Source of the DNA: Sphingomonas parva (ex Maeng et al. 2020)
Lineage (GTDB): Bacteria > Pseudomonadota > Alphaproteobacteria > Sphingomonadales > Sphingomonadaceae
Direction of reading: 5' to 3'
Assembly: GCF_004564275.1 (NCBI RefSeq)
Contig: NZ_SPDV01000031.1
Span: 1 to 45,308, forward strand
DNA: 45,308 nucleotides
Under the pieces are notes generated by a model that saw nothing but the letters and a program-made list of their open reading frames with translations, was not told the DNA's origin and did no database searches. The position numbers and the translations under genes were made by a program. Each line of letters starts with the position of its first letter. Position 1 is the first letter of the stretch. Shown here piece by piece: positions 32,074-33,397 of this stretch.

Positions 32074-32598
32074 ATGAGCATCGCTGAGCGCTGGCACGCC
32101 TGCACCCGCATACCGGCCGTCCGGACGACCCTCGTCGTCATCGGCTTCACGCTGATGATCCTGGCGCCGCTCGCCGGCGTGCTCCCCGGCCCGGGCGGCA
32201 TCTTCGTCTTCGCCGCCGGGCTCGCCCTCGCCCTTCGCTACAGCGAATGGGCGAAGCGCAAATACGTCGCCTTCAAGCGGGCGCACCCGAAGAAGGGCGC
32301 TTGGGCCGATTGGGGCATGCGGCGCCGCAGCGCGCTCCGCCGCCAGGCCCGCGACAAGGCCAGGGCGGCCGACGATCGCCTCGGCGCGGCGGAGCAGGCC
32401 GATAACGCGCGGCGCGCCGACGCGGCGGCGGGCCTCGCTGCGATCGAACGCGTCGCCGCCGTCGAAACGGCCGAGCGCCTGGTCATCGTCGAGACGCTGG
32501 AGGTGGTCGCACGGGGGCCGCGCGACTCGAATGCGGATGGCGAGGACGGCGATGCGGGCGAAAGCGGCGATTCCCGCTCGCGGGCGCGTTCAGGGTGA
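32074..32598 (+). CDS. PGPGW-like membrane protein with long charged tail
   Basis: A 174-aa protein. The first part has a helix TTLVVIGFTLMILAPLAGV (about 19-37), the LPGPGGIFVFAAGLALAL loop-helix typical of small PGPGW-type membrane proteins (about 38-55), then a basic region (WAKRKYVAFKRAHPKKGAW). The last 80 residues are Ala/Arg/Asp-rich and helical (RRQARDKARAADDR...), ending in an Asp/Ser-rich stretch. Relatives I recall end near residue 100, so the tail may be a lineage extension or the result of a frameshift. No clear ribosome-binding site was found. Confidence 0.65.
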   Translation: MSIAERWHACTRIPAVRTTLVVIGFTLMILAPLAGVLPGPGGIFVFAAGLALALRYSEWAKRKYVAFKRAHPKKGAWADWGMRRRSALRRQARDKARAADDRLGAAEQADNARRADAAAGLAAIERVAAVETAERLVIVETLEVVARGPRDSNADGEDGDAGESGDSRSRARSG

Positions 32599-32627: not shown

Positions 32628-32691
32628 CCCGGCCAACAGAGGCCGCCCGTCTTGGGTGGCCCTTTCAATTTCAGATCTAAGGGAATGAGCG

Positions 32692-32826
32692 ATGAAGCGC
32701 ACCTTCCAGCCGAGCAATCTCGTGCGCAAGCGCCGTCACGGCTTCCGGGCCCGCAAGGCGACCGTCGGCGGCCGCAAGGTCCTGGCTGCCCGCCGCGCGC
32801 GCGGCCGCAAGACCCTGTCGGCCTGA
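32692..32826 (+). CDS. rpmH: 50S ribosomal protein L34
   Basis: A 44-aa, very basic ribosomal protein beginning [20 protein letters not shown] and ending RGRKTLSA, with the family length and sequence. It belongs to the large subunit. AAGGGA lies 7 bases before the ATG. It is the first gene of rpmH-rnpA-yidD-yidC-engB. The reading frame of the following rnpA gene runs open through the whole of rpmH in another frame. Confidence 0.98.
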
Positions 32827-33188
32827 GCCCCGGCTCCAGCGACTCCTCCGCCGGGCAGCCCTATCGGGTCCTTGCCCGGCGCGCGGATTTCCTCGCCGCC
32901 AATCGCGGGCGGCGCGCGCCGATGCCGGGCTTCGTCCTGCTCGTCCACCCGCGCGGGGACGATGATCCGGCGATCCGGCTCGGAATCACCGTCACCAAGA
33001 AGATCGGCGGCGCCGTCGTCCGCAACCGGATGAAGCGACGCTTCCGGGCGCTCGCCCGCGAGCTTCTGCCCGTGCACGGCATCGCCGGCGCCGATCACGT
33101 GCTGATCGGCCGCGCCGGCGGGGTCGAGCGCGACTTCGCCCTGCTCCGCGACGAGCTCTCCCGCGCCTTGCGGAAGCTGGGCCGATGA
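32823..33188 (+). CDS. rnpA: Ribonuclease P protein component
   Basis: The protein subunit of RNase P, which matures tRNA 5' ends. Family marks are [16 protein letters not shown] at the start of the domain, [32 protein letters not shown] (the RNR signature) and DHVLIGRAG. There is no ATG, GTG or TTG in frame between the rpmH stop and the conserved domain. The start given is a CTG that overlaps the rpmH stop; an ATG at 32685, seven bases before the rpmH ATG, would give a 167-aa protein overlapping all of rpmH, and GTG at 32595 is also open. The next ATG (32925) would cut into the domain. Its end overlaps yidD by ATGA. Confidence 0.9.
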
Positions 33189-33397
33189 TCGCGAGGCTGC
33201 TCATCCTGATCGCGCGCGCCTGGCAGATCGGTCCGTCGCGGGTCCTGCCGCCGAGCTGCCGCTACCGGCCCAGCTGCTCGGCCTATGCAATCACCGCGCT
33301 TCGGCGCTATGGGGCGCTGCGCGGCAGCTGGCTCGCCGCGAAACGCCTTGCACGTTGCCACCCCTGGGGGGGTTCCGGCTGCGATCCTGTACCATGA
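33185..33397 (+). CDS. yidD: Membrane protein insertion efficiency factor YidD
   Basis: A 70-aa protein with an amphipathic N-terminal helix ([16 protein letters not shown]) and the cysteine signature [18 protein letters not shown], followed by [14 protein letters not shown]. It is thought to help YidC-dependent membrane insertion. The start overlaps the rnpA stop and the gene is 12 bases before yidC, the usual order. Confidence 0.95.

Follow-up and report, generated by a model that had tools for sequence, protein, structure and literature searches.

Where does translation of rnpA, the gene for the RNase P protein, begin in Sphingomonas parva? The question is raised by the rpmH-rnpA locus of contig NZ_SPDV01000031.1, of which positions 1 to 45,308 are referred to here as the window. 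On the forward strand, rpmH (32692..32826; PF00468, TIGR01030) encodes the 44-residue ribosomal protein L34, and the conserved RnpA core lies at 32865..33185, as judged from phmmer matches to RnpA proteins of solved structure (best E 3.7e-10) and from an AlphaFold2 model. As the original prediction stated, the stretch from the rpmH stop to this core contains no ATG, GTG, or TTG in frame. A CTG (32823..32825) overlaps the TGA that ends rpmH, and an ATG (32685..32687) in frame with RnpA stands seven bases upstream of the rpmH ATG, directly after the Shine-Dalgarno-like motif AAGGGA (32679..32684). The proposed rnpA reading frame runs without a stop from this ATG to 33188 (167 amino acids plus the stop codon), with rpmH nested inside it in another frame, and its first 60 codons (32685..32864) form an N-terminal extension that ends with the spacer between the rpmH stop and the core (32827..32864), read in the rnpA frame.

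The identity of the two genes is clear from profile matches, with PF00825 scoring 70.3 bits (cut-off 22.3) over residues 62-165 of the 167-residue frame and TIGR00188 scoring 51.6 (cut-off 38.35). The genome (4.49 Mb in 111 contigs) holds a single rnpA match and a single L34 match, and a genome search for RNase P RNA returned one class A match (RF00010, 259.8 bits, contig C8). Downstream, the rnpA stop overlaps the ATG of the next forward-strand open reading frame in the list (33185..33397), which from its position is presumably yidD-like, as ATGA at 33185-33188.

We consider it very probable, judging from sequence comparison, that rnpA starts at the ATG at 32685 and that one Shine-Dalgarno site serves both starts, 7 nt apart. 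This reading draws on conservation of the start and frame, openness of the frame, constraint on rpmH, and the pattern of losses among relatives. The window sequence by itself leaves the start unfixed, since the rnpA frame is open further upstream to -286 (counted from the rpmH ATG) and contains two other candidate starts there, TTG at -40 and GTG at 32595.

The loci compared were the window, 29 from a search of 60 relatives (59 of which gave a match), 80 named loci, and 80 hand-picked order-wide. Genome G019 shares the genus code of the window, and its locus L014 matches L077 of Allosphingosinicella vermicomposti without a difference over the stretch compared, in keeping with a sphingomonad origin of the window. 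L001-L110 were chosen by similarity to the window, and L112-L191 were picked by hand among the matches listed to span genera with and without the ATG. L084, which is without rpmH, and L147, in which no rnpA was found, were dropped, and merging of exact duplicates reduced 190 loci to 179 distinct ones. An ATG exactly at -7 is present in 109 of the 179, a proportion that is not a prevalence because loci were selected by similarity and by hand. Across the order, a strict DNA pattern combining this ATG with the rpmH start matched 97 of 396 genomes, which represent 12 of 84 genera and all belong to the family of the window (Sphingomonadaceae), while the plain rpmH pattern matched 329; the 97 are an undercount, because genome G007 escapes the pattern even though its locus (L009) has the ATG. 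In a sample of the class, the pattern matched 3 of 385 genomes, namely the window, one family member, and one genome of 0.6 Mb. Sixty regions from other families of the class served as a control, of which 58 were parsed; rpmH was unparsed in L250 and no rnpA was found in L195.

Wherever the ATG is present, rnpA lies in frame 2 relative to rpmH and is open from -7 (109/109), which bears out the conservation of upstream ATG and frame that the original prediction proposed to check. Of the 70 loci that do not have it, 30 carry rnpA in frame 2, 27 in frame 1, and 13 in frame 0. A canonical start after rpmH is found in 62 of these 70 loci and is missing from 72 of the 109 with the ATG (Fisher p ~1e-13, a value that overstates the association because loci share ancestry). 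In those 72, the ATG at -7 is the sole canonical start between that position and the core, and no further canonical start occurs inside rpmH in the rnpA frame in any of the 109. Sphingobium chlorophenolicum (L046) and Sphingomonas echinoides (L098) are examples of species with the ATG and no canonical start after rpmH. The core directly adjoins the rpmH stop (spacer of -1) in 35 of the 109, 33 of which have no canonical start after rpmH. Eight of the 70 loci without the ATG are also startless by the criterion used, so a missing start alone is not decisive. The same layout in 109 distinct loci makes a base-call error, another doubt raised earlier, unlikely.

Close relatives with an ordinary start after rpmH had been named beforehand as evidence against an upstream start. 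Such relatives exist, mostly as genomes without the ATG at -7 (49 of 56 such family members), and also as 37 of the 109 loci with it, in which downstream starts could be usable alongside the ATG. These downstream starts mostly have no Shine-Dalgarno site: their median predicted pairing is -1.7 kcal/mol, with 2 of 37 at -5 or below, against a median of -2.0 for random windows. For the starts after rpmH in family members that have no ATG at -7, the median is -3.0, with 14 of 49 at -5 or below.

Loci in which the ATG is replaced offer a closer view of the alternatives. In Sphingobium fontiphilum (L064), TAG takes its place and an ATG at +17 follows a GAGG site; L007 has an ATG at +26; and six loci of one Rhizorhabdus-containing clade have a GTG at +17 with a weak or middling Shine-Dalgarno site. 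L109 has TTG for ATG, rnpA displaced to another frame, and two GTG codons, at +4 and +19, but comes from a metagenome-assembled genome in which an assembly error is possible. The startless family members without the ATG are L027, L078, L120, L126, L136, L139, and L191. L078 has a TTG at -7 and an open frame; the other six have no ATG, GTG, or TTG upstream of the core, and near-cognate codons may serve as their starts.

The original prediction cautioned that high GC content can keep frames open by chance, and this caution proved justified for openness as such, though the comparative evidence exceeds what chance would give. Frame 2 is open through rpmH in all 109 loci with the ATG. It is also open in 43 of the 56 family members that have no ATG at -7, in 3 of the 14 loci belonging to other families, and, among the 58 class controls, in 28 (the rnpA frame itself is open through rpmH in 7 of the 58). 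Openness is thus common without the ATG and by itself argues little for an upstream start. A codon-choice simulation, which gave an expectation of 54% open for the set with the ATG, was not relied on because it predicted 24% for family members without the ATG, where 43 of 56 were observed. A codon-context bias keeps the frame open regardless of the ATG.

At conserved rpmH codons, third-base change per YidC tree length is 0.422 in the set with the ATG versus 0.644 in a clade without it, a ratio of 0.656 (bootstrap 0.54-0.77, 30 codons). This comparison covers 108 rows with the ATG and 43 rows of the clade without it; 13 other family rows without the ATG were omitted. The control ratios are 0.98 for the rnpA core (0.88-1.10, 47 codons) and 0.93 for yidC (0.87-0.99, 165 codons), the latter itself slightly reduced. 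The synonymous-site constraint that the original prediction suggested looking for is thus present. Arginine codons with a third-position T followed by AA, AG, or GA number 0 of 323 in loci with the ATG, whereas 14 of 182 are found in loci without it.

The extension preceding the core spans 47-84 residues across the 109 loci, and its rpmH-overlapping part is rich in proline, arginine, and alanine. For the window protein, AlphaFold2 pLDDT block means are 51-64 over residues 1-60 and at least 92 from residue 61, and the model suggests that the extension is probably disordered. Two of its residues are conserved, E10 in 98 and D26 in 95 of the 109 loci, even though the base that decides each of them is not fixed by the L34 codon. 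A protein-level constraint on the extension beyond the avoidance of stops is possible on the basis of this conservation.

The strongest evidence comes from the spacer. On a quick LG+G4 tree of YidC from 177 loci (L174, without yidC, and L105, with a yidC piece of <200 aa, were not included), 108 rows with the ATG show at least 45 changes in spacer length and no change of frame. For the 56 family members that lack it, the minimum is 41 changes in length and 18 changes of frame. Across the 109 loci, the spacer takes 18 lengths from -1 to 110 nt, in steps of three and in a single frame. These sequence patterns indicate that the spacer is read as a continuation from upstream of the rpmH stop, and that it is a fast-changing translated linker.

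On the same tree, the ATG at -7 requires 9 changes (5 of them forced by well-supported branches), compared with a mean of 55 after shuffling; a sister-pair test on well-supported branches has 5 pairs only. One clade of 43 is wholly without the ATG, and smaller absences occur inside groups that have it. L137, on a long branch, and L136 are both without the ATG and diverge early within the family, which leaves room for a gain later than its very base; L149, L154, L158, and L159 are also early branches, with the ATG present. The change counts give no direction in themselves. We infer that there was probably one early gain in Sphingomonadaceae followed by several losses, mostly where a start after rpmH exists.

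The strongest alternative is termination-reinitiation at the CTGA on the rpmH stop, with the open upstream frame as a by-product of GC-rich codon use. The CTGA is present in the window, the frame is open in 43 of the 56 family members without the ATG, and overlaps of this kind occur at the rpmH-rnpA junction in the family of class control genome G552 (GTGA or TTGA in 9 of 29 members, with CTGA in others that are startless). In the 109 loci with the ATG, however, CTGA is found in only 58, and rpmH ends in TAA or TAG in 51, including 40 of the 72 startless loci, so that no CTGA is available there. The overlap is not conserved, with 22 or more changes along the tree, no locus of the 109 has ATGA, GTGA, or TTGA at the rpmH stop, and a C before TGA is as usual in family members without the ATG (35/37). 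Restart at CTG, which had been put forward as the simpler explanation, is thus ruled out in 51 of the 109 loci, and it leaves the conserved ATG, the rpmH constraint, and the loss pattern unexplained; for the locus as a whole we regard it as improbable.

Less probable still, with only a slight chance of being correct, is that the ATG at -7 is kept for L34 initiation, as a spacer or decoy, while rnpA uses a near-cognate start that varies by genome. The leader is conserved at several positions beyond the ATG, and the six family members noted above that have neither the ATG nor a canonical start may indeed use near-cognate ones. Yet no in-frame rpmH position before the stop overlap carries CTG, ATT, ATC, or ATA in as many as 10 of the 109 loci with the ATG. 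Nor does such a start account for a frame that survives 45 spacer changes, or for the absence of the ATG being accompanied by starts after rpmH.

A start further upstream, at the TTG at -40 or the GTG at 32595, is suggested in the window by the frame being open to -286 but is hardly credible, as 55 of the 109 loci have an in-frame stop no more than 40 nt upstream of rpmH. Equally remote is an L34-RnpA fusion made by ribosomes that begin at rpmH and shift into rnpA, which is the open -1 frame; no classical X_XXY_YYZ heptamer (Y = A or T) occurs in rpmH in any of the 109 loci, and the ATG at -7 would go unexplained. Initiation at the ATG at 32685, the interpretation proposed in the original prediction, is thus supported as far as sequence can tell.

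How one site might serve two starts is suggested by its position. In the window, the last GG of AAGGGA lies 1 nt from the rnpA ATG and 8 nt from the rpmH ATG. Among the 109 loci, the distance to the rpmH ATG is 8 nt in 68, 9 in 29, 7 in 7, and 10 in 3, and no site was found in 2; a GG-containing site 7-10 nt upstream of the rpmH ATG is therefore present in 107, and the leader is mostly T from -16 to -13. In family members without the ATG, a Shine-Dalgarno-like site lies at 8 or 9 nt in 36 of 56, and the predicted pairing for rpmH is alike with and without the ATG (median -5.9). The site thus seems tuned to L34. A Shine-Dalgarno spacing of 1 nt is poor for initiation.

From these two distances, we infer that initiation is weak at the rnpA ATG and strong at the rpmH ATG. 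The ordinary spacing of ~8 nt would send most ribosomes to the rpmH ATG, and at ~1 nt a minority would begin at the rnpA ATG, cross all of rpmH in the -1 frame, and continue through the spacer into RnpA. The product would be an RnpA with ~60 extra, probably disordered, N-terminal residues. Such a layout would couple the output of the RNase P protein to that of L34 at a low built-in ratio.

Outside the family, none of the 58 parsed class controls has an ATG at -7. In one of them (L245), a GTG stands at -7 and rpmH is followed by no canonical start; the family of its genome, G552, was followed through 30 members (L254-L283), of which 29 were parsed. Two genomes of one genus code (L263 and L264, the latter being the same genome as L245) have this GTG and no canonical start after rpmH, and one (L277) has a TTG at -7. 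With 2 of 29 and 1 of 29, an upstream start in this family is not conserved, and it was rejected as a second case. In 9 of the 29 parsed members, the rnpA start shares bases with the rpmH stop, in the form GTGA or TTGA. L270, L271, L273, and L275 have CTGA there and lack a canonical start upstream of the core, a hint that CTG may truly serve as the start in these four. This family shares with the sphingomonads the gene pair and the overlapping ends, but its start sits on the rpmH stop and there is no conserved upstream one.

The closest known system is the nested rnpA/rpmH pair of Thermus, reportedly described by Feltens et al. in 2003 (PNAS 100:5724). Thermus RnpA is N-terminally extended, and its N-terminal third is reportedly dispensable for RNase P activity in vitro. 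According to PMC9841429, the two Thermus starts form AUGGAUG behind one GGAGG, expression of both genes has been shown, and nothing similar had been reported in bacteria; in PMC4892627, the pair is one of two overlapping-gene examples known to the authors. The likeness extends to rpmH lying wholly within rnpA and out of frame (here in 109/109 loci with the ATG), to an rnpA ATG a few nucleotides upstream of the rpmH ATG behind one Shine-Dalgarno site, and to the relative frame, as offsets of 4 and 7 nt are both 1 mod 3. The parallel drawn in the original prediction is supported by the comparative tests, with a start offset of 7 nt here (ATGNNNNATG) instead of the 4 nt of Thermus. Further differences are that the sphingomonads belong to another phylum, that the layout is present here in 109 distinct loci and missing from several members of the group, that 35 of the 109 have no spacer, and that expression of both genes was demonstrated in Thermus according to PMC9841429, while the case here is made by sequence comparison.

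Two nearby start codons in two frames are also known from E. coli pqiA, tamA, and narQ, with ambiguous AUGUG/GUGUG start sites (PMC9841429). In those genes, both start codons fit into 5 overlapping nucleotides, and in-cell expression of the alternative short frame is left open for one gene in that source. In the sphingomonads, by contrast, the two products, L34 and RnpA, are core proteins, and both are essential. The literature searched, in which subscription journals are mostly outside coverage, showed no description of rnpA/rpmH nesting in sphingomonads. Since an ATG at -7 is missing from all 58 class controls, the gain is probably independent of that in Thermus, and the sphingomonad locus appears, from its sequence, to be a new case of a known, nearly solitary kind.

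This is a rare instance of two conserved bacterial genes that fully overlap on the same strand with measurable constraint, and the public annotation of RnpA starts in Sphingomonadaceae deserves a check. A second case that seems independent and is widespread among bacteria that can be cultured allows the idea of coupled output to be tested, with the natural losses of the ATG serving as experiments. It is likely, in our assessment, that bacteria acquired the nesting on two or more occasions, once in Thermus and once near the origin of Sphingomonadaceae, and that at least a dozen genera have kept it, with L34 constrained at the codon level; it would then be a recurrent device fixing the RNase P protein as a small share of L34 output.
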